A stretch of 64,000 nucleotides of DNA, taken from positions 310,001 to 374,000 of the forward strand of contig JAGMVK010000023.1 in the NCBI GenBank assembly GCA_020747065.1, given 5' to 3'. Positions within the stretch are counted from its first letter, which is position 1. Every line of letters begins with the position of its first letter. The stretch comes from Cadophora sp. MPI-SDFR-AT-0126. Lineage: Eukaryota; Ascomycota; Leotiomycetes; Helotiales; Ploettnerulaceae. Below, piece after piece: positions 27,115 through 61,781 of the stretch. The position numbers and the translations under genes were made by a program. Below the pieces are notes generated by a model. The model made no database searches and was not told where the DNA came from. It saw only the letters and a program-made list of their open reading frames with translations.

Positions 27115-27440
27115 CAGAAGAAGATGTCGGGTTGGTGACGTCAGATAAGATCCGTGATGAGGGGAAAATATAGTTCACAGGACCTGAGGGGAAATCATAG
27201 TCACAGGGCCAAAGGTTAAAAAGGTAAATGCGAGCGGGACGAAGCGAACAACAACAACAGATCTCGGCATGTGACAGTGACCCCGTGGTACCCCTTTTAC
27301 AAGGCTCGCTTAAAAAAGCTCGGCTAATTTTTGGGCCCCGCGAGCCTTGGGCGCTGGGTGGTATCGAAGCCCTTCTTCTCTTAGCAAGCTAAGAGTACGA
27401 AGGCATCTCTTAGCAAGCTAAGAGTACGAAGGCACGAAGC
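27115..27440 (-). repeat. Helitron leader repeat (5' side)
   Basis: Upstream region of the DUF6570-type ORF, with the marks GGTGACGTCAG, GAGCGGGACGAAGCG, AAGCTCGGCTAATTTTT and CTCTTAGCAAGCTAAGAG. The same series recurs at 30900-31170, 31690-31905, 32010-32095 (short) and, RIP-mutated, 36520-36640. Confidence 0.7.
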
Positions 27441-30400
27441 CTTCGTACAAGAGTGCTGGCCTACGGCTCGCACGAAGCCTTCGTGCCTTCATTCCTAAGA
27501 AGAGGTCCAGATGTGTGGCAAAGTAAACATATAAAGAAATAATCTCCGTAACATGTGACATAATCACTTGATTGCCCTTTAGAAACCTCGGCCAATTTTC
27601 ACCTCCGAGAGCCTCTTCGCGTTGCGCCCTCGAAATTCTTCTTCTATTAGCAGACAGGTCAAGAGTACGAAGGCACAAAAACGACTATCCTTCACTGGTA
27701 GCGCGCGATCCGCACGCCGACACCCTGAAACCTATCGTCCTTCCGGAAATCTATGGTTATTGCTTGATCACAGCAGGATATGAGTGAGACCCGACGCAAA
27801 ACAATATTGAAACTGTCAAAACTATAAGAGAGCGTAATGTTGAATATAAGTCTGGAGAGAGTATATAGTGAAGAGAGTTAAACGCCGACTCTACCCATCC
27901 CCGGACATGTGCAACGAATCATTCAGTCTCTCATTGATTTATTAGTCGTGAAGTCGCCCTGGTTAACTACTAATCACCTTATCCAATTTGCACTTTCTTT
28001 TAAGCGATGTTCTTTGTCCTGGCTTCTTTCTCGAGTAGAAGTGCCACGATTGCCTCGTGACCTCCAACTGAAGCTGCTTGGAGCGCATTGCCGTAGGCTC
28101 CGCCTTGAGCATTTATATCGGCCCCTTTCTCGAGTAGAAGTGCCACGATTGCCTCGTTACCTTCAGTAGAAGCTGCTTGGAGTGCATTGCCGTAGTATCC
28201 GCCTTGAGCATTCACATCGGCCCCTTTCTCGAGCAGAAGTGAAACTGGCGTAAATAAACCTTCCCGTGATGCGTAATATAGTGGAGTAGCAATTCTTGTG
28301 ATGTTCTTTTTCATATTAGTTCTTTTCTAGGGGAGGTCCGAGTCATAGAGCTGAATCCAGTTCTGAAAAGCATTTCTTTAGAAAAGTTGCATAGTGAGCT
28401 TACTTACCTGATCCGGATCCTTTATTGCTCGAAAATGACGGCACTAGTATTCCGCTGTATATAAAGCCAGAGGGAATATGTTAAGATTTCCTGAGGTGAG
28501 TACACCTCTTTGAAATTGAAGAAGGTACGATAGACAAGATAATATAATTTCTTCTTCTCCTCTGGATTGTATATCATACTCGAAAGTTAACCTAGTTCGA
28601 ATACGATTAGAGATTAAGTATTCTTTAACAGAGAAATAAGCTAGCTTAAGCTCTGTTATCTTATTGGTAGTTCCGTTATTGCCGTTAACTGTTACTAGTA
28701 TTGTTATTACTAAGCTGGAGCAAATAGTTAATAAGTCTTAAGGATCTGGAAGTCAGTTTTCGGGATTGAATTATAGCTCTTCGGTATTGATAGTAATAAC
28801 CTTAACCATCTTTTTTATACGAAGTGGCCGAGCTAAATACATTAGCTATTAGAGGATTCAGAATGCATCTTAATTATAGTCCTTATTAATACTAAGTAAT
28901 ATACGAGCATACGTTTCATCTAGGGTTTTCAGTAAAGACTTTAGTGCTTTCCGTAAAACGTCTACTTTCAAATATTTTCGTAGTACGTCTAGTTGACATA
29001 TAACCTAACGAAATCTTAAGAATTATATTAGTTGTTTCAAAGAATATATAATAAGAAGGTTATAACGTATATTCCTTATGCTCCTTCTATCAGAGTATCT
29101 TTAATTTCTCTTTGCATATTAGCAAGCTACCGTCTCAGTTTTGGGTCATTCCGAAGTCGTTCGGAAATATAGGTACGAATGTCATGATTAATGAGGGCGC
29201 TCTGGAGGCAGATTTCGCTTGTGACTATAAATTCGAGAGCTTCTTCGATGTCTTACTCCCTCCGGCTTATGGCAAGAACGTGCAGTTTCCCTGCGCCCTA
29301 GGAAGTAAAGTTCTCTAGTAGAAGTAGGAGTTCTTCCCTTTCTTTACATTCGTCTAAAGTATCAAGAATAATAAACGTCTCCCTAAATTCATCTAATATT
29401 TACTATAAGGTAATCTCAAGGGCATCTTATATAAGCTACTGCTTCTTATTCTGATAGTGAGAAAAGAGTGATTCTAGATAAGTAAGAGCTTTTGCCGATT
29501 GCTAAGCTAATTGCTTGATTAGCGAATGCATAAATTTATTATGCCTTTGCTTCTCAGAGTTGTTGAAGTCGAAGTAGAAATAGGCGATTGCCACGATAGG
29601 GTTAGACTTGTATTAAGACTTGACTTCTTCTAGGGCCGTAGAACTGCGAATATAATTAATAAGTTTCCAATTAAGTATTAGCGTGGAGTCATTACCAAAG
29701 AACACTTTTCCCACAGCCAGCTGTAATATTTTGATTAGCTATTAGTAGCAGGAGCCTAGCTTTAGGTGATTACTTACGAATTCCATACAGCCAGAGAAAA
29801 GATCTAGAAGTCATCTTCCATTTCTTAAACTCGTCGCTCTTCAGAAACCATTCTCCTGTAGTTGCTTGACGTAATTTGCAAGTAGCGTTATAGTTAGTAG
29901 ACAGATCTGGCGATAATAGCTAGTAACGAATTTCCCGTTGTTTTTCACTTATTACTAGTGTCCTCTATTCGGTCTGCATATTTACTAGACTATTACCTAG
30001 CCTCGATATATTATCTTTAATAGCGCGAGTAAGAACACCAATAAAGGTTAGCTTAAATCACACGACTATTATAGCATAAAACCTACAGATTATCAGATGT
30101 TAACGCCAGAGTAAATGTCGCCTTATGTTTGTTAATGACTTGAAGGCGTTTGTCAACGTCCTTACTTGAGAAGGGCCACTTGAATGCGCGTAGACCGAAT
30201 CGCCTTATCTTAACCTCTCCTTCTCCAGGCTCCAGCTGCACTAGTAGTCGTCTCAAGTCTCTCTCGCACTATTGCACTGGCCCGTTATACTGAGTAAGAC
30301 AGCTGAAGACTGATCTTCTAAATAAGCTCGGTTCTTCAGCTAAATCTTTCATATCGTGCATGACATCTTGAAGAGATATTACCCCTACACGGAGGCGCTG

Positions 30401-32576: not shown

Positions 32577-35382
32577 TCACCTTATCGAGCTTGCAATTTT
32601 TTTTTTAGCGATGTTCTGTGCCCTGGCCCCTTTCTCAAGCAGAAGTGCTGCGATTGCCTCGTGACCTTCAGCTGAAGCTGCTTGCAGTGCATTGCCGTAC
32701 TCTCCACCTTGAGCATTCACATCGGCCCCTTTCTCGAGTAGAAGTGCTGCGATTGTCTCGTGACCTACAGCTGAAGCTGCTTGCAGTGCATTGCCGTACT
32801 CTCCACCTTGAGTATTCACATCGGCCCCTTTCTCGAGCAGAAGTGCTGCGATTGTCTCGTAACGAGCTGCTTGCAGTGCGTTGCCGTAGTCTCCGCCTTG
32901 AGCATTCACATCGGCCCCTTTCTCGACCAGAAGTGCTACGATTGTCTCGTGACCTTGAAAAGAAGCTGCTTGCAGTGCATTGCCGTACTCTCCACCTTGA
33001 GCATTCACATCGGCCCCTTTCTTAAGCAGAAGTGCTGCGATTGCCTTATAACCTCTAGCTAAAGCTACTTGAAGTGTATTACCGAAACAGCCGCCTTGAG
33101 TATTCACATCGGCCCCTTTCTCGAGTAGAAGTGAAACTGGCTTAAATAAACCTTCCCGTGATACGTAATATAGTGGAGAGGTAATGCTTATGATATTCTT
33201 TTTCATATTAGTTATTTTCCGTGGGAAGTCTAGGTTATAGAGCTGAATCCAGTTCTGAAAAGCGTTTTCTTGAAAAAGTTATATAAGGAGCTTACTTGCC
33301 TAATCTGAATCTTTTATTACTTAGAAATGACAACACCAGTATTACGCTGCATATAGAGCTAATAGAAAGGTATTAAGATTTCCTTTAATGAGTACACCCC
33401 TTTGAAAATGAAGAAGGTACTTTAGATAAGACTGTGCAATTTCTTCCTTGGCCTTTGATTGTATGTTATATTGGAATGCCATCCCTTTTCAAATACGTTT
33501 AGAGATTAAGTATTCTTTAACAGAGAAATAAGCTAGCCTGAGCTCTGTTATATCATTAGAGACTCCGTTATTGCCCTTGGCCGTTACTGATATTGTTATT
33601 ACTAAGCTGGAGTAAATAGTTAATAAGTCTTAAGGATCTGGAAGTCGGTTTTCAGGATTGAATTATAGCTCTTCGGTATTAATAGCGATAACTTCAACTA
33701 TCTCTTCCATACGAAGTGGCTGAGCTGAATATACTAGCTATTGGAGGATTCGGAATGTATCTTGACTGTAGTCCTCGTTAATGCTACGTAATATACGAGC
33801 ATAGGTTTCATCCAGGGTTTTCGGTAGAGACTTTAGTGCTTTTCGTAGAGTGACTACGTTTAAATATTTCCGTAGGACGTCTAGTTGGCATATAACTTAA
33901 TAAAACCTTGAAAATCATGTCAGATGTTTTAAAGAATATCTAATGAGAAAGTTTCAACGTATATTCCTTATGCCCCTTTTATTAGAGTATTTTGAATTTC
34001 TCCTTGCATATTAGTAGGCTACTGTCTTAGTTTTAGGTCATTCTGGAGTTGTTCGGAAATATGGGTATTAATGTTAATATTAACGAGAGCGCTCTGAAGG
34101 CAGATTTCGCTTGTGACCAATGATATAAGAGCTTCTTCGATGTCTCGCTCCCTCCGGCTTGTAGCAAGAATATGCAGATTCCTGAGTAAGGTTCTCTAGC
34201 AGAGGTAGGAGTTCTTCCCTTTCTTTACATTCGTCTAAAGCATCAAGAATAATGAACGTCTCTCTAAATTCATTTAACATTTACTATAAGGTAACCTTAA
34301 GAGCATTATGCGTAGGCTACTGCTTCCTATTCTGACAGCGAGAAAAGAGCGATTCTAGACAAGTAAGAGCTTTTATCAATTGCTAGGCTAGCTGCTCGAT
34401 TAGCGAATGTGTAAATTTGTCATGCCTCTGCTTCTCGGTATCGTTGAAGTCGAAGTAGAAATAGGCGATTACTATAGTAGAATTAGACTGGTATTAGAAC
34501 TTGATTGCTTCAAGGGCTATAGAACTGCTAATATAATAAGTAAACTTTCAATTAAGTTTTAGTATGAAGTCACTACCAAAGGACACTTTTCCCGCAGCCA
34601 GCTGAAATAATTTGATTAGCTATTAACAGCCTAGTGTGGTTAATCACTTACGAATACCATAGAGCTAGAGAAAAGATCCAGAAGTCATCTTCCATTTCTT
34701 AAACTCATCGCTCTTCAGAAACCATTCCCCTGTAGTTACCTGACGTAATTTATAAGCAGCGTTATAGTTAGTAGACGGATTTAGCAATAATATCCAATAA
34801 CGGATTTTCTATTGTTTTTCACCTATCGCCAGTATTCTCTGTTTGGTCTTTATATTCGCTAGACTATTACCCAGCATCACTATATCATCTTTGATAGAGC
34901 GAGTAAGAGCACTAATAATTATTAGCTTTAATCACACGACCATCATAGCATAAAACCTACAAATAGTCAGATATTAACGCCAGAGTGAATGTTGCTTTAT
35001 GGTTGTTGATAACTTGAAGGCGTTTATTAACCTCCTTGCTTAAGAAGGGCCACTTGAACGCGCGTAGACCGAATCGCCTCATCTTAACCTCTCCAGGCTC
35101 CAGCTGCGCCACTAGTCGTTCCAAGTCTCTCTCACACTGCTGCACTGGCCCGTCATCCTGAGTAAGACGGCTGAAGACTGATTTTCTAGATAAGTTCGGT
35201 TCTTCAGCTAGATCTTTCACATTAGTCAGGATATCTTGAAGAGATATTACTCCTAGACGGAGGCGCTGCATATCCTTTCTAGCTTCCTTCACCTCCGTGA
35301 TATATGTTTGGCATAGTCCTAATATCTTTGCAGAGATGTCGATCACAGCAATGACACTTGCAGCTTCACTAAGACCACTCAT
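32577..35382 (-). pseudogene. NACHT-ankyrin NLR-like pseudogene B
   Basis: Better-preserved paralogue of copy A. The N-terminal domain is open at 35382-34957 (MSGLSEAASVIAVIDISAKI and on to LEPGEVKMRRFGLRAFKWPF). Walker A is still legible near 34570-34600 as AGCGKSVLW, followed at once by stops. Walker B is at about 34200-34270 (TFIILDALDECKEREELLPL). The C-terminal frame 33206-32577 encodes six to seven ankyrin units and ends ARAQNIAKKKIASSIR. Stops after Walker A and several frameshifts make it a pseudogene. Some differences from copy A are transitions, which would fit RIP acting on a duplicated sequence. Confidence 0.8.
32630..33125 (-). repeat. 99-bp ankyrin-coding tandem repeat
   Basis: Units of 33 codons (GADVNAQGGEYGNALQAAS then EGHEAIAALLLEK) repeat with high similarity. 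One unit is shortened to ARYETIAALLLEK. Near-identical repeats are characteristic of the fast-evolving recognition end of fungal NLRs. Copy A at 28010-28290 retains three units. Confidence 0.85.
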
Positions 35383-35759
35383 TCTGAGGGGCGGAGTCCA
35401 AGGACTCCTAATAATCGGTTAGGCGAGCCTCGCGGGAATGGGTGCCTGCTGCCGGTACCTACTTGTCTTGCTCCCCACTGGCAATTAGTCCGTTCACGAC
35501 GATGCTATATCTGCAAGTCTAGTTACAAGTAATTCAAAAGGCTCGTAAATATCGTAATCCAAGTAACAAAGGATTCAACTCGTAAGGTGTCGTTGATGTA
35601 GGATGAGGCTGGCGCTTCGGGCACCAACTTTTAGCGGGGTAACTAGGCTGATAGTAGAATGGCGTTAAGTATCACGTGCGTACTCCTTATCTGGAAAAGT
35701 CTTGGTCGATTTGCTGGTTGTTGCCGCTACGGCTGGCGCCGATGCGGTAGTTACCCCTT

Positions 35760-37932: not shown

Positions 37933-38529
37933 GAGAACTTATATGTATCATATCATACCCTGCCCGCATATTTTCACGGATGTGACGCAGGCAGGATTGA
38001 ATAGCTAATAGGCCCATTTGTTTCTTGGTTTTCCTAGAGCTGTTGAAGATGGTTATGTCAGGCATTCTTTATAGTCCTCGTGTGCTTGCTTCGATAATCT
38101 GAAGGCTAGCTGATCGTTCTAGCAGGGATCATCTGTTCCGTACCTCTCCTGCATGGATTCATGGTGGCCTCAGCCTTGCTTTTATGCATCATAGCTAGTA
38201 GAAAGTGGAATGTAGTCTCCTCCACCACCAAATCTGCCTCACTAACGGTGAAGAGTAGCATCATGTATGTCCCTATCCCGGCCATTGTACCCGCTATCCC
38301 CTAGCACCACATGCCATAGATACGAGACGAATGCACACTCCCACTTCTTACTCCTTGTAGAAGCGCCGGCGCTAACTATAGCTAGGCCCGGGCATGTCTT
38401 TGGTGACGTGGTCACAGTGAGTGGAAAGGAATCTAATTGGGTCTTCTTAATGGAAGCAGCAGATTTGGGATTGTGGCCCTGGAATTGCTGCATGCCCCAC
38501 GGAAGAAAGTCCCTGGTGCTACAATGGTA
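37933..38529. other. no supported gene
   Basis: Opposing frames of about 100 codons (38267-38578 plus, 38242-38532 minus) are mirror frames without domains or splice support; both run into the transposon end. Confidence 0.4.
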
Positions 38530-39830
38530 CAATCAGGTGATATTGAAGAGCGGCACGTGCCAATTTACCCCACCTTAAACACTTGAGCATATTTTCATTA
38601 ATTGTAAACGTAAGATCAATCTAAATAACTCAATTTGTAGGTAATTAGTACTTCGTTGCTCCTCCCTTGTTCTTCAAGCATGCCTCCCATCTTCTAGGTA
38701 CAGAATCACACAGTTTTAAAAGGAAATTTCCGTCTATATTAGGCCACACTTCTTTTAACACTGCACGCATTTCCCTTGCCGACTTCACTCTGTGCTTTCG
38801 TTTGGAGATTATATCCTTGATATATTTCCAAAGATTCTCAATTGGATTAAGGTCAGGGGACTGTGCCGGCCATACCATGCGATTAACCTTTTTATTCGCC
38901 AAGTAGTTCTTAATACTATTCGCCGTATGCCAGGGCGCATTATCTTCTTGCATGACTACTTCTTTGCCGTACTTTCGTCTCATTCTTTCGTAGAATGGAA
39001 CAAACAACGTTTGAAGCCCCACTTGTATCGTTTTGCCGTCATATTCTCGCCTTCCGGGAGCATATATAACGGTCCCATCTCATCTCCACAAAAACAACTC
39101 CACACGCCTACTGTCGTTCGCCCACTTTTAAAAGTAGGTCGGAGATTCTTCTCCGCGTACTCCTCTTCCCTCCCAGGGCCCCTAGTAACCCAAAACGTAC
39201 ACGTACTCTCCCCTACTTCAGACGTAACCTCATCACTCCAACACACCTTCCGATTGTCTCGTTTCATAGCTTTTTCGGCTCTACAATGGACTCGACGACG
39301 ACGTTTGTGATCTTCAGTAAGAAAAGGCTTGTTGCGAGGCCGATGCTTTGATTTGCCGTGAAATTTGAGGATCTTAGCGACTGTACGTGGGTGAAGTTTG
39401 ACCCCTGATTTTAACGGCGTAGCGAGAGCTTATAGGGTCATCCGGGTATCTTAATTTGCGATTCTCAGAAGGTTCCTTTCCCCTTGCGGCTTAACTTTCC
39501 GCATAACCCCCCTTCCGGGCTTGTTTTCGAACCCATTTGTAGGAGCTAAGGTATGTCGAGTCAAGAAGGTGCAAATCGTAGAGCGGGGGTAGCCAGTTTT
39601 CCTGTGGATCTGCGATGCGTTGTTTCCTTCTTCGTGGAGGGACCAAATATTGGATTTTTGAACCGGAGTAAGCTTCTTTCGTGTGGTCTTTGGTTCACGA
39701 GGCATAATTAAAAATTTAAAGATATATTATAAGAAGATCGTCAAATAATTAAGATATATGTGCGTGGGGAGGCATTAAAGTTTCTCGTTTATTTAAGCGA
39801 AAAGTGGCGCTCTTCAATTTCACCTGATTG
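38530..39830 (-). mobile_element. Tc1/mariner element with intact inverted ends
   Basis: The 1301-bp element is bounded by inverted repeats of at least 27 bp (38530-38556 and 39804-39830), starting CAATCAGGTGA and continuing ATTGAAGAGCG, with two mismatches. Both ends are flanked by TA (38528-38529 and 39831-39832), the Tc1/mariner target duplication. The transposase inside is broken, so the copy could move only in trans. Confidence 0.9.
38645..39705 (-). pseudogene. Tc1-like DDE transposase, frameshifted
   Basis: The frame from 39705 begins MPREPKTTRKKLTPVQKSNI and carries a Tc1-type helix-turn-helix (HRKTGYPRSTICTFL). It stops at 39451 (AAT TAA). A second frame continues with KSGVKLHPRTVAKILKFHGK, the Tc3-type second HTH, and KVCWSDE, where the first catalytic aspartate lies. 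A further frameshift near 39020 leads to VVMQEDNAPWHTANSIKNYL and WPAQSPDLNPIENLWKYIKD, which hold the second and third catalytic acids of a DD34E-type site. So there are at least two frameshifts and one stop. The family assignment is secure; the copy is dead. Confidence 0.9.
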
Positions 39831-40058
39831 TACATTATAAGTTATGCTTCATTATCCATGAGCAGACCTCCATGTTAGAACCGTTGATTATCGTGAATCG
39901 ACGAGAAACTGCCGTTGTTGAGGGGCGTAACTGCCGGAAAAGTTCTGTAATCTGTGGATGGGTAGAGATCGCTAGGAGAATGAAGATTGGGTGGAAATTA
40001 GTCCTGTCACTCTTTCATAGCGAGCTAGCAGAGAGTTTGGTGTTATTTCATTACTAGA

Positions 40059-42328
40059 TTACAACTCCTCCTCCTCGTCCTCATCCTCGTTCATCTCAAA
40101 GTCGAAAGCTTCCTTTGTTGCAGGTTGTAACCGTTGAGGCAAGTCTTCACCCCGGCGTCTCTTCCCCGCCAGCGACTCAACAACCGTAGTTACAATGACA
40201 GCAGATTTTTTCGTCCTTGTGAGTATATCAAAACAATCCTGCCAGGTGAAGTACGGGCCTTGTATCAACGATAATTTTCTGCCTTGATCCGCGTATTCCT
40301 TGGCTTGGTTGTTAACATCTTCCTTTCTGAACGGAACTTCTCCAACAGTAGCACCGTTCTCAATAAATCTAACCATCCTTTCCTTGAACAAAACAACTTG
40401 GTTGCTTTCAATACCTTCATCTGGACTACGAGCTTGGCGATTTGTGGCAGGGGTGGAACCCGTACTTTCCACGGCAGGTCGAGATACGTCTAGTTGATGG
40501 CGATGCAAAGGTAAACAAGCCGGCACTGGATGCATGGAAGGGCCTTCTTGACTTCCTGTGAGGTCTATCGTACCAAAGAACGCAATATGTCGTGAACGTT
40601 TGACATAAAACGAACTAATCTCATCTCCATCCCTTCTATATTTGGAAAGGGGAACGTTTATCTTATCCAAAAAAAGGTGTGCGAGGTCCCGAGTATCCAT
40701 CGGGCCGTGGCCACATCTACAAGACAACGGAGCGCCTTTGCCAGTGACAGTAATTTGAGGGAATGCTGAATGTATGCGGATAGTGTCTTGGCTATTGATA
40801 TATTCCTTAAATGATGCAATGAGAGGGCTTGCTTTGTAAGCATCGAAATTGAATTTTTCGTTTGGCCGCAGGGTGTAGAATACGTCCTGAAGTGCCTTCT
40901 CAACCATAGCTTGCGCAGGGTCCTGAGTTACTTCGAACTTGATCTTTGGAGTCGAAAATCCTAGGCGGGACGCAAGCTCCGCTAGCTGCAGCCGGCTATA
41001 CGCATTTGGATATTTGCATACCCTATATGAGCAAAGCCACAGCTGCTGATAGCAGACATCAAAAGCATCCTGGTGTCCTCTTGGGACAGTTGTGTACGGA
41101 CCCGACACCCCCTGCTGTATTAGGATCCCACCGCCATCTAATCCAGTGCCAGTAAAGTAATGAAACCACCGCTGGCGAAGAGTTTTCTTACGGGACGCCG
41201 GTAGGAGTTTGGACAAGAATTCGGCTGGCTGCTTCAAGTACCTGATGTCTTTGATTAACGTATATAGACTCGGCATCAATTCCTCACTAGCGAGCAGACG
41301 CTGGGCGATGTCAGCTCTCTCTAGGGGATCGACGATTTCAGGGAAAAGCTCGCCAGATCCCATGTTCTCGCGGATAAACTCATAATCTGACTTCGAAAGG
41401 GCAGGCGACCTCGACTGTATGGATTCTATGGAGGTAGGATCAGTTCGCATCATTGCGGCCATATTGCCATTGAAAATATGGGTGAAAATAACTTTAGTAG
41501 AGTTGATGTAATGAGCGATTTCCTGTACTAAGTTAGACCAGATATTTCGGAGATTGAAGAAAACTGACTTCGTCACACTTCGGAAACAAGAAGACATCAA
41601 GAGATCCTATATAAAACTCTCTCCAGATACCCTGGATATGGAGAACGGAATCCAAAGCGGCAACTAGTGTAGGCCGCTTGAGGAGCTGTGTTAAAAACTT
41701 GTCTTGAGAAGGGCTAAACCTTCCCCGCCAGCGTTGTACTCCCACAGGATCATTATCGTAATGGCAGAGGCGCATGTGCCGAAACACTTCGCCGGATGTG
41801 TATTTTGCTGAGTATGAATACCCCTCGCGAAGCGCTTGCTTGGTATCTTTGTTGAGATCTACGTAGTGGTCAGCTTGGTTACACGTCAGAACAGGTGCAG
41901 CTACCGGTCCCATAGATATCAACTACCCACCACCATTGCGATGCGGCAAGATGCTCTTTCGCTGCCAGAATTCGATGTTGACCGTGAAGGCATTCCAGTT
42001 TTACTCCGCTTTCTAGTTCCAGGAAGGGTGGATGGTCTGCTTTCGCTCTGAAAGTTTCGGTTGTGAGAGAGAGTTTTTCAAGCCCAGCTTGCAGTATCGA
42101 ATTATCGACAATGACAGGAATCCGGTGACTCGGTTCCTCTCGAATGCATCCTTCGCCATCGAAATCTCTTATCAACTGCTGGATGGCCTTCCTATCGATC
42201 TGACGAGTTGGGTGTGGAAATTCTAGGTGTCGAATCGATACTCGAGCTGCGCCCTTGAACTTGGCCAGCTTATCGTTTGCAATCCTCTGGTCTATGGCGG
42301 CGAGAGTTTCCTGACTTGATGTTTCCAT
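40059..42328 (-). CDS. DUF3723 protein (Starship auxiliary family)
   Basis: Three exons, 42328-41905, 41858-41569 and 41522-40059, join in phase to a 725-aa protein; both introns are 46 bp with CTGAC or CTAAC branch sites. The N-terminus has the DUF3723 pattern: IDRKAIQQLIRDFDGEGCIR EEPSHRIPV, then LECLHGQHRILAAKEHL and WWWVVDIY (GQHR at residues about 116-119). This resembles the ParB-like superfamily logic and may bind nucleic acid, but the biochemical function is unknown. The middle is conserved globular sequence; the C-terminus has KRRR and an acidic EDEDEEEEL tail, suggesting a nuclear protein. It is divergent from the pseudokinase gene, with a 339-bp shared promoter. DUF3723 genes are a known auxiliary class of Starship transposons. 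The gene looks intact. Confidence 0.85.
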
Positions 42329-46459: not shown

Positions 46460-46536
46460 GACGAGCTTTCCTCCCTCCTATCTTCTCCTCATCACTTCAC
46501 ATTTCTTCTCCATACTGCACTCTTCCATCCTCCATC

Positions 46537-47454
46537 ATGAACCAGACCTCATCTACGGAGCGCTGCCGACACGACTACGAATTCTTTCCTACGGATGGAT
46601 CTCCTCCGGCATATGACTCTTCGCTTGAGGACATCAACCCTCCCGCGTATTGCTACGGAACTTTGATCGGCATGTCAGATGAGATAGACGCATGGATCGC
46701 TGGTAGAATTCCCTACTGCTACCTCAACTCCTGCGAGCAGGTCTATCAGTTCACGAATACGGCGAGACGACATCGAAGAAAGCTCACGCAAGTACCATTG
46801 GTAATAGAGGCGGCCAAGAATGCGTTCAGCTACCATCAGCGACTACGAGTGGTAGGGCTTGCCTCACTGCCTGCCGCTATCGTCCATGATGTTGTAGCGC
46901 CACCGTACCATCTTGCTCAAATGGTAATAGCTCTATTTCGGAGCAAATTTGAACGAATGAAGGCGGACGCGGGAATTTTGGATGAGGTTCTGGAAAGTCT
47001 TCGGCTCAGTCTAGCAGCAGCTTTCAGAATGGTTACGAGACTCGGTCTTGAAACTCATGAAGCTGTGGAGCGACAGATCCAAAATGGGGAAGGCCATATA
47101 TTCTTGGCGATAGCGAGGCTCCTGGAAGCTTACGGGTCACGCTTTGCGCCTTCTGGTACGGTTTTCCTCGCCTCGCACAAAAGGTTGCCAAAGGAGCATT
47201 GTTTCGGTACTGCACGGCTCCATTTTGAACAAATTCATGATTTGAAGGAAGTTCTAATGTTTGTCGGTTTGTTTCCGGCACAAGACCTGGATGCTTTCGC
47301 AGTGCTCGAACGCTGCTTGCGCAGAGTCTTCCCAGCCCTCAAAGAACCATTTGCGGATTCGGATTCGGAACCTGGCTTTTCTCATCTCGTACAGAGATTA
47401 CGCCATGTTCAGGATGAGATGCCAGGATTGATATCTTTCCAAACCAGAAAATAA
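46537..47454 (+). CDS. intronless 305-aa protein, unknown family
   Basis: Single frame from 46537 to 47454. The first 40 residues are polar and Pro-rich (FFPTDGSPPAYDSS, INPPAYCYG; two PPAY motifs, the type bound by WW domains of Nedd4/Rsp5 ubiquitin ligases). The remainder is predicted all-helical, with several Leu/Ala-rich amphipathic stretches (VLESLRLSLAAAFRMVTRLG, IFLAIARLLEAYGSRFA) and no cysteine pattern or membrane span. I do not recognise the family. It has its own TATA box, and a long, clean frame with no in-frame stops argues that it is expressed. It lies between the pseudokinase and patatin-like genes, in the accessory block. Confidence 0.6.
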   Translation: MNQTSSTERCRHDYEFFPTDGSPPAYDSSLEDINPPAYCYGTLIGMSDEIDAWIAGRIPYCYLNSCEQVYQFTNTARRHRRKLTQVPLVIEAAKNAFSYHQRLRVVGLASLPAAIVHDVVAPPYHLAQMVIALFRSKFERMKADAGILDEVLESLRLSLAAAFRMVTRLGLETHEAVERQIQNGEGHIFLAIARLLEAYGSRFAPSGTVFLASHKRLPKEHCFGTARLHFEQIHDLKEVLMFVGLFPAQDLDAFAVLERCLRRVFPALKEPFADSDSEPGFSHLVQRLRHVQDEMPGLISFQTRK

Positions 47455-47699: not shown

Positions 47700-50600
47700 T
47701 CATCTTAAGCGCCGCCTCTTATTCTGTGTTCTTGTCTGGACGCCAAGGGGTCGTTTGTTTTCTGAGAGCTTGACAGATCTGTCAAGGTAACGCATGAGCT
47801 CACAACTGCAGGCCAGATTTTGAGCTCGCTCGTTTCTGCTTCTATGATCGGGCAGTCCAAACTTCGCATCAAGTTTCTGTCGTTTGACAAACCATTCCAT
47901 TGGCTGCGGAAACCCACTGATGCTCCTACGGAACAATCTGCTAAACGAAAACTGGAGGTTGACTCGATCCGAGGGATGGCGTATGTGGAACTTAATCAGC
48001 TTCTGAAATCGTCCACATAACTCGCAGAGATCGTTCGGGGCTAGGAACCCAAGCGAAGATTCCTGATGAAGGAACTGTGCAAAGGGGTAGCTCGTTCTTA
48101 GACTCTGCACAAGGGCACGACTGTCCGGACTCCGGGACAGAATCGAACCGTGGCATGTGTACTGCCCACCCTCGAACACCAGAGGCCCGTTGAGCTCAAA
48201 GAAGAAGGACGCTGCTTTGAAAGCCCTAGCAATACCCTCCATATCGCCTAAGTGATGGTAGATCTGATCACGGAGATATTGCATCTTGTCGACATCGTCA
48301 ATCCGAGGTTCCTGACCTATAAGGGGCAAATTGAGCCGGAAGTGCCGTTTCTTTTCTTCCTCATCAAGGCCATGCCAATGATCTTCCCAGCTAAGTTGGC
48401 CGTTGAGTGATAACGACTGCATAGAAGCTCGATAGACGCGAGCCAGGGCACCATCCTGTAGCAGGTTCCGGACGTTGGAAGCCACTGGCGATAAGAGCTT
48501 CTGCTGATATCCCGTCCCAATTGAAAGCACCAGATCGCAACCTACATCACCCCAAATCCGGCGAACTTCACGCAGGCCGGGCCGGACAGGGTTATTATAT
48601 TTCAACCCGCCGTCTTGGAACGTACCAAATGACTCGAGATACTTTGGCGTAAAGTAACTAGCCCGGTCAGCTTCGGTCTCAAATTGCTAAATATAACTCT
48701 TACGTTGGGGCAGCTGTTGTACACCTCGCTCTGTCCATCGTTAGTTAGCACGAAACAAACAACCAAGGGAACTTACGCTTCCCAGAGTAGCATCTCATCT
48801 GTCATCTTCTTGGCACGAAGATGTTTATATCCTGGGGTGTTAGTCTTGGTAGAATGTGAGAGGTGTCAACTTACTTGAATCTCTGCCAGGAGGGCCGTTA
48901 CCATTATAATTTGAGATCAGGCATAATGTAGCATCCGATATCGTCGTCGCCGTAACCGCAAATTTCATTCCGGATGGCCTTGATTTCGCCGAATCAAACA
49001 CCCGGCCCAATCCAAGTGTTTCCTTCAGAGCCTTTTCTAAAACAACTGCATCGTACCGGCCATCTGCGAGATAGAAGGCAAAGATACGTCTGAGTATAGC
49101 ACAGATTGAATACCTGCAACCGCGCTTTGGTGGGAAGATGATCCTCGCAAACTTAAGAAAGAAAGCGAGGCATTGCTTTGGCGTCCAGTACTTAGCAAAG
49201 AACCCAATGGTTGCAACACCACCTATTGGCTGTTAGCTTAGAACTAGGTTACGAAGCCGGCCTTACCTGAACTCGTCCCGATGCCATAATCAAAGTGCTC
49301 CTGCAGAGGATATGGCAGGTCCAGCGTCTTTTCCAGCTCTTCCATGAATGCCAAGGAGATAATACCTCTGGAACCGCCCCCATCCATGCCAAGGAATCTT
49401 ACTCGACAGGTGGGCGGCAAGAGTCTGGCCTGAAAATGAATCCCCCTCTGGCAGAAAGGACAGGTGGCGAGGTCGTACCGGTACTTCCGCCCCCTTCGTT
49501 GGCTCACCAAAGGCGACAAGACAATCGTCGCAAATAGCATGTCCACACTCCAGATGATGTTCCAAATTCCTCTGGAGACAGGTGAGGCAGATCGAGGTAT
49601 GCGATAATAATGACCAATGTTGGAAGTTTCGCCCCAAGCTTCTCTGGCGAAGCGCAGCTGCTGACTGTCCACCGTACTTCATGTGTGAGAACATAGAGAT
49701 TATATGGGCCTCGATGTCGGCAGTGATCAAGTCGACATCTAAATGCTGGGAATTTGCGAAGTCATGTATACCCAGGACGCAAGATTGGCGGTATAAGTTT
49801 CGGAAGACGTCTGATGGGTTGAACACTTTTTCCAATTAGTTAGATTCCACCTGTGGACGTTTAACATCGACACTTACTGTGCATGTCCGGAGAGAAGCTG
49901 TCGAAAATGACCACTGAGGCAATGAAGTCCCAAATCATATTTGCAGGAATATTGTGCTCGGAACATAAGCCCGTGAAGATGCTTAGGTGATGCTGGAAGC
50001 TGTGGGAAACAGGGCATAATTCTCTTGAGCATAGAATAAAATCAAAGGTCTGTGGCGATGTCGCGAACTGGCGCAGTGCTGCATCGAAGAACTGGGTGAT
50101 ATGAATCATGGAGAAAAGCGTGTGGGAGTTGATTTTTTCAGCACGAGTCAGATGTGTTTCGTGCTGTAGGGCCTCTGCTAGCCCTTTGAAATGCTCGCGC
50201 GAGGGAGTTCGACCTCGACCCAACACGTTGACTACATTCAACGAAGAGAATGACTCTGAGAACTTGCGATCGGATAGAACCCTCAGACGAAATTGAATGG
50301 CTTCGGATGCGAAAATATCGCCAGGTATGCTCGTGACGACGACCAATCGAGGACGGACAGCACCAGGAAGGCTCGACGCCGAGCCGATTGCTGTCCACCC
50401 TGCTAACATGTCTACCACTCCGTCAAGGCCGCCACAATCCTGGGAAAATATGCACAACACATCGATGAATAACGAGAATAGCCTGGCCAGGGCATGGTCA
50501 GCCAAGTGCTGCTGCTTTTGTTGGTCACCCTCGTCTAGCCAGCCCACCGGGTGATTGATCGTCTCATGGCAGGTGTCTTTGCCTCTCAACTTGGCTTGTG

Positions 50601-51027
50601 TGTGATCAGGGCAGCTATCCGCGATGAGAATTGGATGTTGATCGTTTTGTGTGGCCGGATAGAGACAAATGTTTGCGATGCCGTACTTTCGACAGTTTGA
50701 TATGGTGTTGCCGGGATATAGAGCTCTCAATACTCGTGTTTTGAGCTGCTTTCCAAGAAAGAACAGTATCGATGGACGTTGGTTTACGGGGTCTGGAAGC
50801 GAGGTCGAAATATGGCGAAGTCGATTCGTATGTTGCATTCCGACACCGTTCTCACCCTGATACACGCGGAGCCAGTATTGGTGAGCACACAACGCCATGT
50901 TACCGACCACTTGATTGAAAGGGGATCGGCTCCAATAACAGTTTGTATGCAAATCTGATTTCCATCGGCAACTTTGATCATTTTGGAGGATTATCAAGAT
51001 GTATACCTGCTGGACGCGTGTGGGCAA
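47700..51027 (-). CDS. patatin-like phospholipase (PLP) with RING-like finger; one-base frameshift
   Basis: Six exons: 51027-49878, 49825-49267, 49222-48875, 48831-48777, 48730-48704 and 48657-47700. The corrected length is 1031 aa. Residues 1-380 form a large N-terminal domain. A zinc-finger-like segment follows (CLTC, LECGHAICDDC, CPFC; residues about 465-520), then the patatin domain: oxyanion loop DGGGSRG, nucleophile elbow GTSSG (Ser near 571) and catalytic Asp in QDGG (near 728), followed by VLSIGTG. All catalytic elements are present. The frame breaks near 49488, where GGGGG makes one base too many; with four G the reading TKGRKYRYDLATCPFC is continuous. The cause may be sequencing error or a real lesion. 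Expected role is hydrolysis of lipid acyl esters. PLPs are a Starship auxiliary family, and some fungal ones act in cell death with NLRs. Confidence 0.8.
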
Positions 51028-54240: not shown

Positions 54241-54606
54241 CTACTGGCTCCAATCAAGCTGCTTCCAAAGCTGCCATGACGACGCCATATGTCGATGGCA
54301 CTCGGCCGGTCCCACATGAGAGGAGTCTTGTCTTGATTTGTGCGTGGAATCTGGTGATCCGGAGCTATTTTCGACAAGTCTGCCTTGCCATTGGCAAATA
54401 TTTGCTCCCGGGATGTATCACAACCGCTACTGACTCAGTAAAGCACCGAGCGTAATGGCAAAGTGGGATCCGATAGTGGGTCGATCTCTTGCGAGGAGAA
54501 GTATAAGAAGTCGTCTCCTTCCCAGCGCTGAGGACAAACATTTGTCCTACAGTTTTCATCTCTTTGAACACTCGGCCCCCTCCTTGATCCAGCATCTTTG
54601 ATCAAC

Positions 54607-56355
54607 ATGAATCCAGAACTGCAGACCCATGGCAGCCAGCGAAGCATAGAGATCGACTGGCCATCAGACACGGACTCATCAATCCTTCATGATCCCCAGA
54701 CGTACGATTTGGATTATCTCCAAGAAGCCGTACCACAGAACAATGATGACCTATCAACCCTTCTTGGTCTCGATACCTGCGACTCGGATTCGACTGCAAA
54801 GACTCTGCAACAGAGCTCGTGTTCCGAAACTCAGTTCACTGCAGAGGAAACGCAGACACGTCTCATTGGAGCCACCCAGCCGACAACGGGCGTTCTACCT
54901 CCTACGGCTAATGCCGATGAATCCACCCCTCATCCAATCCACTCTACTCCGGAATTGGCGATCCAGAAAGCATCAGAAACAAACACCAAGGGAGGCGACG
55001 ATCAACCAAAACCGGAGGTCAAGTCAATGCAAGAGCTAGAGGTATGTTTGGGCAGGAAACTCAGACTTGGCATACAAATACTAACAACAAGCAAGGCTCA
55101 ACTTCGATTTTTGCGGCACAAGCTACAGAAAGGGTTTTTGCCAATTGCTGGACAGCCTAAAGCAGATGAGATGAAAACCATGTCTGCCTACCTGAAGAAA
55201 TTGGAGCACATTGGAGACCCACCGCAAAGTATCCTGCGCGCTACCAGGATTACCAAACTTCTCAAAAAGATCACAAATCTGGATGAGATCCCAAGAAACG
55301 GCAAATATTCTTTCAAGGACCGAGCAACTGCGTTACTCGAGAAGTGGGGAACGAGCTTGGAGAAAGAAGATCAGACCACATCCTCGACTGGGAGGCCAAT
55401 CAAACATGATGGCACTGGACTCAGCGCTATTGCAGACGAACAGAAGCCTGCCAACAGGGCGGACTCCCAAAACCTACTGGGCAATGAAGCACCAACTTCA
55501 GCAACTGGTTTGATGGAGAAACGGGCGCTGAACATGGTCGTTAGATCAGAGCGGTCAGCCAGCGATCATAACAATGAGTCCATTGGCACTCCGGCCAACG
55601 AGCATTCCAAGCCTACCCCGCCCCCTTCTCCCGCCCCTCACGATTCACGCGAGCCGAACCGAGCGGTGATTGATTTGACGGACGACGATGAGGTAGATGT
55701 GGCCACCGGATTAGAGCCACCCTGTCACCCTACCGATCCTCAAAGTCTTCGACCCAGCGTAGCCAGGAGCACGCAGGCATCCAGGTCACCACCACCCTCA
55801 AGTACAAGTGAGCGCTCCTTAGCACTACTCATGAATGGCCTAACATATAGTTGCAGATTCTGAACCGATTTCCACCACAACCCGGAAGATCCAGGCTAGC
55901 CCGAAGTCTGCTTCGGCTAAGTCAGACACAAAGAAGCGAAAGCGCTCCAAGGCTACTAACGACGAGAGAGCTCTGGTGTCAGCTTCAAACTCCTGTAAGT
56001 CGCAGCAGAATTTAATGAGATTCCCAAAACTCACAATTGAGCAGCAGGAAACCACAATATGGATAATACACCAAACCGCCAACGACCACAACGGAAGACT
56101 TCACCTGGGAAACACCTTACCAACGAAATCCTATGGATGAGCGGATCGGTTTCAAAGATTGAGAAGATGATTAAGGAGACAGAGGAAGAAATTGACACGA
56201 TAAGGGAGAAGAGAGTCCGGTTGCTCAAAGAAAATGAAGCGGAAATGCAGGCGGCCCGGAGGAGAATGAATGAGTCAATTAACTTGAAGGAGTATCTGCT
56301 TGCTTGGGGAGCCCAAGATGAGAGGGTCACAGAAGAATGGTCATCCCCAAAGTAA
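54607..56355 (+). CDS. 533-aa nuclear protein with TFIIS-N-like helical domain
   Basis: Exons 54607-55041, 55096-55807, 55851-55994 and 56045-56355; all phases fit. The first intron is 54 bp and would read through in frame, but GTATGT plus an ACTAACA branch site mark it clearly. Residues about 145-230 form a helical bundle (QLRFLRHKLQKGFLP, MSAYLKKLEHI, RITKLLKKITNLDEI, RATALLEKWGTSLEKE). The ending with LL.KW is typical of TFIIS N-terminal/LEDGF-type (TND) domains of transcription elongation factors. A long Pro/Ser/acidic disordered region follows, with VIDLTDDDEVD (SUMO-interaction-like), a basic KKRKRSK signal and a C-terminal coiled coil (IEKMIKETEEEIDTIREKRV). I infer a chromatin or transcription role. 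Domain call moderate. Confidence 0.7.
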
Positions 56356-56718: not shown

Positions 56719-57981
56719 TTACAATGAATCCTTGATCTCATTCCAGGCCTTCAAGAACCTCCCCTCAGCGGCCGGCTCCATATTGTCTGGGTCTATGCCC
56801 TTGAGCTCGCACCACTGCTCCCGATACTGCAGCATTGCTGCTCGCTTGGATGCCTTCGACGATGTTGTGCTACTGGTAGCAGCAAGAGGTTTGTCGCTGT
56901 TCTCGCCCTCAACCTTGATCTTTGGCTGAGTTGGCTCGGGGGTTGGCGAGAGTCGGCTGTTTGGGACTGGGGTCGGAGACCTGTCCTTTGCCTCGCGCTG
57001 GCCGTTCTGCCATTCCTCGTGACGAGCCGCGTGCCATTTTGCAGCCTCATAGATATAGGCATCGCATTTCTTGGGGCTGCTGAAGAGGTGTCGAATCGAG
57101 GACCGGACCTCCCACTTCTTTTGGATGACACCACCAATCTCCCATTTAACCCAAATTTCAAGAGGAGCAACTCTTCGAGTTTCGCCCTTCTCCCTCGGTT
57201 CCAGGTCGTTCAAATCGCAGTTGTAGGCCAAGCCCGCGATCCCCAATAGCTCACGTCTCCTGCGCACGAATTTCTTCGCGACTTTCAGGTCTCCAAGTCT
57301 ATGATCTGGACCAAATTGCTCAGTCTCCTCTTCGTCAAAGTCGTTGTCCTCTCTGGCAGCCGTGGAACGTTCGTATTTTGCGGCGTTTTGGGGACCATAT
57401 CTCACAATAACTGGCTTTGACCGATCTTGCTGCCTCCATGCAACGATCTTTCCACCATGGCTCTGTCCTGTTGCCTCCCTTGCTTGAGCTGGCGTGAACA
57501 CAGCCTCCTCATCCTCGGGGGGCTCGCCAGTGGTCAATGGTGTGGATTTGCCGTTGGGCTCAGTTAGGTCGATCGGAGGCAGCCGAGTGGTGTTGTTGGA
57601 CGAAGCACTTGGTTCCCCAGGCGGAACGAAGAGTCCCCCGCCGTCACCATCCTCTTGACGTTCCATATCGATATCCTTGTCTTCCTTGTTCAACTTCTCC
57701 AGTTCTCCCTCCCACTCCATCAACTCTCCGTCTAACTTGGCGATCTCCGCCTTCAGATTGTCGTACCCTGCTCTCTCCCCGGGCCTGGAGCTATCGAGGG
57801 GAGTCTTCGAGAGCTCTTCCAGCTTGGCTTTCTTTTCTGCGACGTCGTTACGATGTTTTTCGACATTGAGAGTGGTTTCCCGAATTTTCCCGCTAACTTC
57901 TTGTTTGCGTGCATTTCTGGCTGCTGACGTGACAGGAGCTACCCTGTTGCTTGCACCTTTGGGTTTCGTCTCTTTCGGCAT
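56719..57981 (-). CDS. 420-aa charged protein with coiled coil, unknown
   Basis: Intronless. It begins with MPKETKPKGASN and a basic stretch, then a long coiled coil (NVEKHRNDVAEKKAKLEELS, KAEIAKLDGELMEWEGELEK; residues 30-100) and a disordered segment with PPIDLTEPNG (SUMO-interaction-like). A conserved-looking globular region follows (VKWEIGGVIQKKWEVRSSIR, CDAYIYEAAKWHAARH). The tail has a short helical motif (REQWCELKGIDPDNMEPAAE). The family is not recognised. It is convergent with the TFIIS-N-like protein and shares its IDLT-type motif and charged style, so both may be nuclear. The frame is clean. Confidence 0.65.
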   Translation of the reverse strand: MPKETKPKGASNRVAPVTSAARNARKQEVSGKIRETTLNVEKHRNDVAEKKAKLEELSKTPLDSSRPGERAGYDNLKAEIAKLDGELMEWEGELEKLNKEDKDIDMERQEDGDGGGLFVPPGEPSASSNNTTRLPPIDLTEPNGKSTPLTTGEPPEDEEAVFTPAQAREATGQSHGGKIVAWRQQDRSKPVIVRYGPQNAAKYERSTAAREDNDFDEEETEQFGPDHRLGDLKVAKKFVRRRRELLGIAGLAYNCDLNDLEPREKGETRRVAPLEIWVKWEIGGVIQKKWEVRSSIRHLFSSPKKCDAYIYEAAKWHAARHEEWQNGQREAKDRSPTPVPNSRLSPTPEPTQPKIKVEGENSDKPLAATSSTTSSKASKRAAMLQYREQWCELKGIDPDNMEPAAEGRFLKAWNEIKDSL

Positions 57982-58356
57982 CTTGATTGTTCCTGGAACT
58001 TGTCAGAACACGGGGTTAAATCCAAGAATATATATCACTTGGTCTATTTTCTAAGAATCGTTTCTCGTTGGAATATTACCGTGATGATTGATGCCCTCCG
58101 AGACCAGATGGTTTCACCACCCTAAATTTGGAGGTCATTCACCACCAGTTGTAAGGTGGTCATCTAACAGTCAAATAACAGATGGCTCCACCAACAGTCG
58201 CTAGTTGATGGTCTGAATGCACCCACAGTCGATTTGGTCTAGAATTGAACAAGATTCCTTGGGAAGACTTCACAAGATTAAATCGCCTTCTATCCTGCGC
58301 AACACAAAAGTGATCTTTCGCCAACGACCACAGCCCAGAGCGACCTGGGAAACGAT
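57982..58356. other. intergenic with ACCACC/GGTGG words
   Basis: Several ACCACC/GGTGG words at 58105-58195 (for example TTCACCACC twice) form weak inverted repeats. No gene. Confidence 0.35.
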
Positions 58357-59146: not shown

Positions 59147-59587
59147 TCAGCGAGTTAGGGATGCTATGAAGTCCTTCCAACCTCCCACCCTGTGCTGGGA
59201 TGATAAATCGAGTCGTGGTGATTCTGGGGTTTTAATCCCAAGTAAGGGCAAGGTAGACATATCCTCAGAAGAGGTGGTTGCGTTTGCTTTAGAAGCTTTC
59301 TTCTTCGCCCGAGACGTAGTTTCGTAGTCCGCAGCTGTTTTAGAAATGACTAGATTGCGTTGCTTGCGAGGGTTAGGCATGGAGTTTCTCTTGGGGCATA
59401 GTTGACTCACGATATCTTCCTCGGTTGGCCATACTAGTTCCTCCGTATTTGCGAAAGTGTAGAATTTGCCGTTCCTCTTGAAGAGGATGAAAACCTCCGT
59501 GTCGCAGACCACTCCAATATCGTAACCCCGATGAAAGAAGTTGTTCTTCCTCTTGCGAAATTGCTCTGATCTGGCCCGCTTGTCCAT
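59147..59587 (-). CDS. MADS-box-like (SRF-type) DNA-binding protein
   Basis: Intronless 146-aa protein that begins at once with a MADS-like domain: MDKRARSEQFRKRKNNFFHR, then GYDIGVVCDTEVFILFKRNG and KFYTFANTEELVWPTEEDIV. This matches the MADS layout: a basic helix with FRKRK, a GxDxxV-type turn, two strands and a WP end. The C-terminus is basic (RAKKKASKANATT) and then disordered. Similar short MADS-like proteins are widespread in Pezizomycotina and are distinct from Mcm1 and Rlm1. It is expected to be a nuclear dimeric DNA-binding protein. It lies in the accessory block beside the ferric reductase, and could be an element-encoded regulator. Targets unknown. Confidence 0.75.
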   Translation of the reverse strand: MDKRARSEQFRKRKNNFFHRGYDIGVVCDTEVFILFKRNGKFYTFANTEELVWPTEEDIVSQLCPKRNSMPNPRKQRNLVISKTAADYETTSRAKKKASKANATTSSEDMSTLPLLGIKTPESPRLDLSSQHRVGGWKDFIASLTR

Positions 59588-59956
59588 GATTAGAATTGAC
59601 GCCGATGAAGATTGGTGAGAGGTGGACTACCCGTCATTATATTGGTGGGCACCTGTACCAAGCTGCAATATCATCGTTACCACTATGTCGAATGCTCCCT
59701 CGCATCTCCAGCGACCACCTTTTGGACGACCACTTGAATGATCACTCCCATAATCACTTGAATTATCACTTGAGTGACCACTCGGTTCATAAACTCTTAG
59801 CCGATCACCCCTGCGGTTGTGCAGGTTAATTACTGTGGGCCTCACAATGCTGATGGTTGTGATTATTGGCAAGCGGCATAACGCCATCTCTAGGACCGAG
59901 TCGGGATTCTCAATTTTCCAACATTGGAAGTTTGGATACTCACAGCACTGTCAATC
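59588..59956. other. divergent promoter with short repeats
   Basis: Region between the MADS-like and ferric reductase genes. At 59708-59805 a CACTTGA(A/G)T word recurs with ACCACT/TCACT, forming low-complexity direct repeats. A GAGAGGTGG word at 59617-59625 is near the MADS-like start. Confidence 0.45.
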
Positions 59957-61781
59957 ATGTCGTTTTCATCATTTGTACGTTCAGGGGTTTCTAAACTCAG
60001 TGACATGGACATACCGTCGCGGTACTGCTTCATTTTTGCCTGTATCTTTGCCATATGGCTTTTGCTTCGTGCCATCTATCGTGCGTTCACCTCTGAGTGG
60101 CTGTCGACTTCCTCCTTCTTCTTGAAACATGCTGCATATCCACATGCCTTTCCAAGGATTCCCTTTGTAGGGACGGCAACGCGTCTCAAGGTTCTGCTCG
60201 CATCCGCGTACGTTATCACGAATACCGTCCTCGTCACAGTCGTTGGGGTGGAGTCAAGGTCAGATATAGGCGCCCGTGCTGCTACAATGTCGATTATCAA
60301 CCTCATTCCGCTCCTGTGTGGTCCGCGTTTGAGCCTCATGACAGAGATGCTCGGAATTTCGCTGCGGACCAGCATTGGAAGCCACCAATGGTTGGGCCGA
60401 ACGGTGGTCGCGGAGGTCTTGTTGCACACGATTATATCATTGACTGGCAGTCAGCCATTCATATGGACGGGGATTAATGCCTCTGGAGTTGTGGTGCGTC
60501 TGCGTTGGCTTTCCCCTAGGGGGATCTTCGGCTAACTTCAAGTCATAGGCGAGCTCCGCTGTTGGGTTTATTCTCCTTTTCTCGTTTCGTGTCGGGCGGA
60601 GGCTTTTCTACGAATGGTTTCTTAATCTACATCTGCTTCTCTCCATCACGGCGATAATCGCCATCGGACGTCACGTATTCTCAAAAAAACCGGCGGAGAT
60701 ATTTTTACAGATCGGTATATGTTTCTGGGTCGGGATGACGACACTCCACTGGCTTATATTCGCATTCAGAAACTTTGCCATCGGCAGGCCGTTTGCGAAG
60801 GCGGTAGCAACTCGCCTCTCAATTCCCTACCCCTCAGATAGGTCGCAGGGCCGTCGAACGTGTTGCAGATCGATATCATCGTGCCTAGAAAGTGGAAGGT
60901 CAGGGCTGGTCAGTATGTCTTCCTTTCAATACCTAAACTTGGCGTCTTGGTCGGACTGCGAGGACACCCTTTCATGATTTCGTGGTGGGATTGGAGCCAG
61001 AAAGGGTTGACAATCTCCCTCTTGGTCAAGTCAAGGACAGGGTTTACCGAGCAGTTGGATAGGTACACCGACACAGAGCTCCTTGCATTTATCGATGGAC
61101 CATACGGAATACAGCATAGGTTTGGAGAATATGGAACAGTGATCATGTTTGCCACTGGGATCGGCATAGCTGGCCATATGCCATATATCAAGGACCTCAT
61201 CAGCGGATACAACAATTGCCAAGTACGGACGCGTCGGATTCTCCTCGTCTGGCAGATAAACAAAGAGAGTGAGTCAAGGAGAAGAAAAATCGTCCTATCG
61301 CTTCTAATTTCCTCTTAGGCCAAGAGCAATGGGTCAAGAGCTAGATGGATGATCTCCTCGATAGTGATACCGGATATGTGCGTAGCGTCATCCAACATTG
61401 TCAGCTTGCTAACGCTAGGCAGATCCTCGAGGTCCGCCTCCATGTCCTGGATTATGGAAAGGAAGATAAGGAGTACGGGACTCATTCGAAGATCAAGAAA
61501 ATATTCGCCCCGCCGAATGTTGTCGAAGTGCTCGAGACTGAGTTCGAATCCAACCGAGGCAAGGTGATGGTCTCCCGTAAGCGTCGGTTCATCACATCCT
61601 TAGGTCACCAGCTAACACCATGATAGAATGTGCTGATCGAGTCATGGCCGACAAAGTCCGTAGGGAGGTCCAGCGGAGAATGAATAAGAGGGTTCGCCTG
61701 GTCGAGCTAGACTTCCAGCCATCCTTGCGAGAGACGGGGTGGCCGTCATCTAATGACATGGAATTCAAGTGCAAGGGATGA
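59957..61781 (+). pseudogene. ferric reductase (FRE/NOX-type), broken in three places
   Basis: Membrane flavocytochrome that would pass electrons from NADPH through FAD and two hemes to extracellular ferric iron. Exons are about 59957-60493, 60549-61268, 61319-61378, 61423-61576 and 61627-61781. Heme ligands are visible as two HX13H pairs (SHQWLGRTVVAEVLLH and LHLLLSITAIIAIGRH). The FAD site reads VRAGQYVFLSIP with HPFMISWW, the NADPH site MFATGIGIAGHMPYI, and the C-terminus VSQCADRVMADKVR ends in LVELDFQPS. Lesions: a missing base near 60848 (CAGGGCCG), one extra base at the start of exon 3 (61319-61321, GCCC), and TAG at 61343-61345 where tryptophan is expected. The start at 59957 fits the leader. 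FREs are one of the four Starship auxiliary families. Confidence 0.85.

Follow-up and report, generated by a model that had tools for sequence, protein, structure and literature searches.

Starships, the giant transposons of fungi, are described as carrying a DUF3435 captain together with recurrent DUF3723, ferric reductase (FRE), patatin-like phospholipase (PLP) and NOD-like receptor (NLR) genes (PMC12134995), with the captain always the first gene and with sizes of up to 700 kb (PMC11623301); among the Starships of Aspergillus fumigatus, direct repeats accompany 19 of 20 and terminal inverted repeats 18 of 20 (PMC12153272). The present analysis concerns 64,000 nucleotides of Cadophora sp. 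MPI-SDFR-AT-0126 (hereafter the window; contig JAGMVK010000023.1, C16:310001-374000), in a genome of 54 Mb in 38 contigs (C1, C4, C12 and so on). At window 40-62 kb, genes of the DUF3723, PLP and FRE families lie together within 22 kb, and this block is probably the captain-less, decaying remnant of a Starship, and thus a known kind of thing. In the literature collection searched, no paper names Starship and captain together with Cadophora, and one does so with Leotiomycetes.

The three genes, referred to below as the trio, are the following (window positions).

40059..42328, minus strand: DUF3723 gene in two exon frames, with a single apparent frameshift near 41.57 kb
47700..50898, minus strand: PLP gene, 972-aa model identical to a GenBank protein
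59957..61781, plus strand: FRE gene, matching FAD_binding_8, NAD_binding_6 and Ferric_reduct

An earlier note on this DNA had named these genes at these places, and the Pfam matches bear it out: PF12520 (DUF3723) in two frames (E=4e-53 and 3.7e-22), Patatin PF01734 (E=1.8e-18), and both FAD_binding_8 and NAD_binding_6 above their cut-offs, with Ferric_reduct slightly below its own. The PLP carries the motifs DGGGSRG, GTSSGG and DGG as well as half a RING finger; from their families, it is predicted to act on lipids and the FRE to reduce metals. The AlphaFold model of DUF3723, built from Hyphodiscus protein P0003 and 21 relatives, was poor (mean predicted local distance difference test, pLDDT, of 50), and a Foldseek search of the PDB with this low-confidence model gave 0 matches at E<=0.001. 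DUF3723 and PLP are near-complete and FRE is recognisable, each with one apparent lesion. When relatives of DUF3723 are aligned to the window, the shift of frame near 41.57 kb falls where an intron cannot fit; in PLP, frames overlap near 49.5 kb, a place that the GenBank model spans with an intron; and in FRE, a substitution near 61.34 kb has produced an in-frame stop at a position held by tryptophan in the C. malorum protein.

The block is best read as being of Starship ancestry because relatives of the trio in the same genome sit with a captain on two other contigs. On C4, PLP lies at 1882k, DUF3723 at 1901k, FRE at 1913k and the captain at 1942k; on C12, the captain lies at 3309k, DUF3723 at 3413k, FRE at 3463k and PLP at 3485k. 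These loci (C4:1882-1943 kb and C12:3309-3488 kb) resemble the window in holding DUF3723, PLP and FRE together; unlike the window, they show DUF3435 matches as well as the captain-end motif described below, and their gene order and orientation differ from those of the window.

The same association extends across the genome, in which 42 DUF3435 matches were merged by hand, by exon, into 21 loci and 29 DUF3723 matches into 12, and clustering of DUF3723, PLP and FRE exceeds chance. Of the 12 DUF3723 loci, five have a DUF3435 locus no more than 65 kb away, where the expected fraction is 0.04 (binomial P=6e-5); 4 of 26 FRE matches lie within 30 kb of DUF3723 (expected fraction 0.013), as do 2 of 5 PLP loci, window included. 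These statistics assume independent loci and include the window in the FRE and PLP tests; all 26 FAD_binding_8 matches served as the FRE set, the C23 FRE not being among them, and five PLP loci were kept, with partial matches on C1:3871k, C14 (two), C13 and C33 excluded. Furthermore, the four best paralogues of the window FRE (C12:3463k, C15:40k, C4:1913k and C23:1100k; 30-38% identity) each have a DUF3723 at 2-47 kb, and captains stand 28 and 30 kb from those on C4 and C23 and 110-151 kb from that on C12; C15 gave no DUF3435 match. At the five DUF3723 loci near captains, the two genes are 13-61 kb apart, and DUF3723 lies downstream of the captain at the four unambiguous ones (C4, C16:739k, C23 and C12:3889-3895k), C12:3414k being ambiguous.

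The history of the genes in other fungi provides a further line of evidence. Protein searches scored the best 7,996 candidates each, with species lists as lower bounds; the DUF3723 query was an approximate model whose frameshift is bridged by a false second intron, and the FRE query a gene model redrawn by eye. All 22 DUF3723 matches and 34 of 52 PLP matches were aligned, and trees were built from 18 of the 52 PLP matches and from 11 of 29 FRE matches plus the window. Named DUF3723 relatives (6 of 22 matches, the rest lacking an organism or being second copies) come from Rhynchosporium secalis, Halenospora, Hyphodiscus, Venustampulla, Tricladium and Leptodontidium; three of these six are placed in Helotiales by genus, and the others we take to be Helotialean. 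Identity to Helotialean DUF3723 proteins is 50-76%, and 70% across its length for R. secalis RSE6_15146. Of 11 other strains compared, five have two or three trio families on one contig, namely R. secalis (RSE6_15143 and RSE6_15146), Hyphodiscus (all three), Venustampulla, Tricladium and Pseudogymnoascus F-4515, equal contig size within one strain being taken as the same contig.

In the PLP tree, R. secalis and R. agropyri pair with moderate support (90/87), and R. graminicola, presumably R. commune, groups with Leptodontidium PMI_412, Xylogone and Hyphodiscus (98/98). The R. secalis and R. agropyri PLPs are 82.5% identical to each other and 81.8 and 81.7% identical to the window PLP, in species whose common ancestor dates back 1200-3600 years (PMC5118889). 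Since this divergence is too large and the sequences fall in two clades, plain vertical descent of one PLP gene in Rhynchosporium does not fit, and the orthologues there do not follow the species tree as those of a resident cluster should, albeit on few sequences, some of which may be broken genes with lengthened branches. The FRE tree is mostly unresolved and places the window with Leptodontidium 0119 (96/93), not with C. malorum. Altogether, the gene set, the same-genome relatives, the decay and the discordant history make a captain-less remnant the best reading.

Captain searches around the block covered 264 kb (C16:210-474 kb), and two features at the left edge of the window bear on them.

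C16:304537-305996, minus strand, 4.0-5.5 kb left of the window: C-terminal captain fragment with mutations of the repeat-induced point mutation (RIP) type, from DNA and protein comparison
window 1..2585, no strand assigned: right part of a RIP-mutated long terminal repeat (LTR) retrotransposon, right end approximate

The fragment was missed by Pfam PF11917 and found through comparisons with captain DNA and protein. It spans residues 286-487 with 13 stops, its DNA is 75% identical to the C1 captain, and four captains match its best 150-base windows at 99-100% identity in a purine/pyrimidine code, which is insensitive to RIP-type transitions; DNA matches to the C1 and C12 captain loci are limited to C16:304.5-306.0 kb. 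The LTR retrotransposon, 6.6 kb long and of a high-copy family, starts at C16:305998 and cuts the fragment, whose front half was not seen on its far side; the retrotransposon itself showed no clear target-site duplication. Weak six-frame matches at C16:338 kb (to captain locus L007) and 354.8 kb (to L008) fell outside the captain parts of those loci and were set aside.

A marker for the 5' end of such elements emerged from comparison of the DNA upstream of captains of different lineages, which share a 30-bp core, GCTGTTTTCGGNNGGTTTNGTCGCTGTTTT. This captain-end motif occurs at 14 genome sites at <=3 mismatches (reversed control, 0). Captain sequence follows 10 of the 14: at eight of them a same-strand DUF3435 match lies 0.9-2.2 kb downstream, and at C2:2039k and C12:3669k the sequence behind the motif is captain-like. 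At C16:560k, C1:3905k, C10:49k and C36:86k, no captain was seen in the 4-4.5 kb read behind the motif, C36:86k having one 29-residue captain match close to it. Examples of the sites are these.

C4:1944796-1944825, minus strand: captain-end motif
C20:131418-131447, minus strand: captain-end motif
C23:1133180-1133209, minus strand: captain-end motif
C12:3307885-3307914, plus strand: captain-end motif

Homology between C1 and C4 starts about 32 bp upstream of the motif, so that the motif marks an element end. There is modest support for a resemblance of its flanking arms to inverted repeats (mean best match of 14: 10.0 within a site, 8.5 between lineages and 8.4 when shuffled), and, as a guess, the motif may be a captain-binding site for recombination or self-regulation. 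The first 11 bases of the core are present in five papers of the literature collection searched, none of them about Starships by title. The motif is the most novel by-product of the analysis; if it is general, decapitated Starship ends could be found by a short DNA search. The nearest listed site on C16 (C16:560539-560568, minus strand, 1 mismatch, pointing left) has a Mutator-like transposase in the 4.5 kb read behind it and is possibly such a decapitated end.

Despite the evidence for a Starship remnant, several observations weigh against it. In genome-wide searches in which the best candidates were scored, none of the 42 PF11917 matches lies in the window, nor does any of the 42 to the C4 captain protein, in agreement with the earlier note, which had seen no DUF3435 captain there. 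That note had advised searching both ways along the contig: comparison of six-frame open reading frames (ORFs) of C16:210-474 kb with the captain loci gave one outward-pointing captain relic and no captain gene, and the captain-end motif has 0 sites there at <=7 mismatches, the single site in purine/pyrimidine code (15 letter mismatches) being taken as chance. The remaining 7 of the 12 DUF3723 loci, window included, have no DUF3435 within 110 kb, nor does the FRE-DUF3723 pair on C15 over the same distance. Same-genome relatives are distant (DUF3723 about 21-37%, PLP 28-48% identity), so both the link and the modules themselves are old. Additionally, the families are not linked in 6 of the 11 other strains (Halenospora, Leptodontidium 0119, Pseudogymnoascus WSF 3629 and F-4514, R. 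graminicola and Polytolypa), the frameshifts in DUF3723 and PLP may be assembly errors, and the case stands without direct repeats, inverted ends or an empty site. With neither a captain as first gene nor a 5' end by our own marker, the motif, found at the block, it is not filed as a Starship, even though the recurrent auxiliary genes DUF3723, PLP and FRE are all present. The proposal that the block is Starship cargo thus keeps its ancestry, through relatives that sit with captains, and loses the notion of an intact interior.

Other explanations have to be set against this one. That the block is an ordinary gene cluster resident in Leotiomycetes, which has never travelled as a Starship and has cousins of its genes carried by Starships elsewhere, is unlikely, although the identities of the Helotialean DUF3723 proteins and the family linkage in the five strains named above could both reflect old synteny, and PLP identity drops roughly with relatedness. 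Against such a cluster stand the Rhynchosporium PLPs, too divergent for young species and split between two clades (with the reservation on broken genes given above), the several PLP copies in Pseudogymnoascus strains, and the clustering of the trio families with captains above expectation in this genome.

The remaining two explanations would supply the missing captain end from elsewhere on the contig. A very large Starship with its 5' end at C16:560539(-), 186 kb beyond the right edge of the window, and with the block far inside it would agree with the motif there, which differs by one base and points toward the window, and with the upper end of published sizes (700 kb; PMC11623301); such an element is nevertheless very unlikely, as the 4.5 kb behind the motif hold the Mutator-like transposase and no captain, the C4 captain protein has no match in C16:306-639 kb (best candidates scored), the genes of C16:377-474 kb look host-like, though possibly cargo, and the element would exceed 200 kb. 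The alternative that the fragment at C16:304.5-306.0 kb is the block's own captain, turned by an inversion, is the least probable of those considered. The fragment is a genuine captain piece, by its identities in DNA and in purine/pyrimidine code, and its distance of 44 kb from DUF3723 falls within the range of captain-near loci; yet it is disfavoured on strand, since a fragment on the minus strand implies an element running left, away from the window. DUF3723 is moreover upstream of it here and downstream of the captain at the 4 unambiguous loci, its front half was not found across the retrotransposon, and no inversion breakpoint is in hand.

We infer, in keeping with the preferred reading of a captain-less Starship remnant, that the block was once a mobile element. 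An element with a DUF3435 captain, carrying the trio as its auxiliary genes, would have inserted at this site; its captain end may then have been deleted or lost to rearrangement amid insertions of retrotransposons and Helitrons, and the block would have been immobile and mutating ever since.

A fourth auxiliary family, the NLRs, had also been claimed for this stretch on the strength of two NACHT-ankyrin relics, which lie left of the block with an associated ORF.

32577..35418, minus strand: NLR relic 1, with ankyrin (32577-33278), NPHP3_N (34083-34280) and PigL_N (34957-35418) fragments, in a repeat common to C12 and C33
28003..30532, minus strand: NLR relic 2, with ankyrin (28003-28326) and weak PigL_N (30272-30532, below threshold) fragments
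25315..27174, minus strand: DUF6570 ORF within the repeat shared with C12 and C33, which we take to be Helitron-linked

The ankyrin, NPHP3_N and PigL_N fragments are there, as broken pieces, and no intact NACHT domain turned up in the searches run. Three stretches of the window (22.9-23.9, 25.6-27.4 and 32.6-36.2 kb) recur as a group at C12:82-101 kb and partially at C33:3.164-3.175 Mb, with no DUF3435 match near either copy (best candidates scored). Relic 2 has a short DNA match, not a full one, to this repeat, and by likeness and position it likely belongs to the same Helitron-type array. Because relic 1 belongs to a Helitron-type repeat present at two loci with no captain match nearby and relic 2 is likely of the same kind, the NLR relics are not counted as Starship cargo and the family probably drops out as a fourth. 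The earlier suggestion that the relics might instead be part of a Helitron array holds directly for relic 1 and, by extension, probably for relic 2.

Further features lie in and beside the block.

38525..39833, no strand assigned: 1.3-kb repeat with inverted ends, with 82-83% identical copies on C19, C9, C7 and C4
42644..43850, plus strand: multicopy ORFs, no Pfam match, a kinase likeness being by eye only; related ORFs in the window itself at 17.8-19.3 kb, at C35:784 kb and at C16:671 kb
46438..47454, plus strand: 338-aa ORF, no Pfam match; the DNA upstream is 81% identical to C16:669292-670163
54568..55863, plus strand: low-complexity ORF between PLP and FRE, no Pfam match
56719..58002, minus strand: ORF present at one genome place only, no Pfam match
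59147..59626, minus strand: short MADS-box (SRF-TF) ORF, E=2.2e-8

The middle of the block (window 43.1-46.6 kb) is related, in inverted orientation, to C16:669292-671455, a part of C16 that also has DUF3435 matches at 640, 691 and 782 kb. Degenerate short repeats around TTGGTACCA lie in window 44560-44960 and match captain-adjacent DNA at C20:128193-128339 at 83%. In a flank survey of 20 ORFs, the right flank has a GH18 gene at C16:377.6 kb and an RSN1_7TM channel at 381 kb, followed by metabolic genes, with a major facilitator superfamily (MFS) gene and a thiamine pyrophosphate (TPP) enzyme among those of C16:377-474 kb; the left flank has a P450 at C16:302 kb. These flanking genes look like host genes, cargo still being possible, so the remnant may span at most about C16:315-377 kb. 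A telomere search gave at least 194 matches, those listed reaching as far as C11, and the final 400 bases of C16 are TAA-rich.

A bolder proposition has two parts: that DUF3723, PLP and FRE form a linked selfish or defensive unit of their own, moving between Starships by exchange and persisting captain-less across Leotiomycetes, and that all Starship 5' ends of this genome share one captain-recognition core with lineage-specific arms. Taken jointly, the two are doubtful, but if the former were true, the so-called auxiliary genes would be passengers with interests of their own rather than parts of the transposition machine. A captain-less trio block beside captain-bearing trio loci in one genome offers a natural comparison: decay of the trio after captain loss would mean that it serves the element, and its maintenance elsewhere without a captain that it serves itself or the host.

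Set beside Starships, the block is alike in its combination of DUF3723, PLP and FRE and in a history discordant with the species tree (Rhynchosporium), and unlike them in that no captain gene or captain end was found and its NLR relics probably belong elsewhere. Derelict Starships with degraded or missing captains have been described as ssf clusters, tied to active elements by the cargo clusters they have in common (PMC11623301); the tie of the present block, unlike theirs, runs through families of auxiliary genes whose resemblance to those beside captains is distant. With these derelict elements, the block shares what marks a remnant of this kind, namely genes of Starship type, the want of a working captain and decay.

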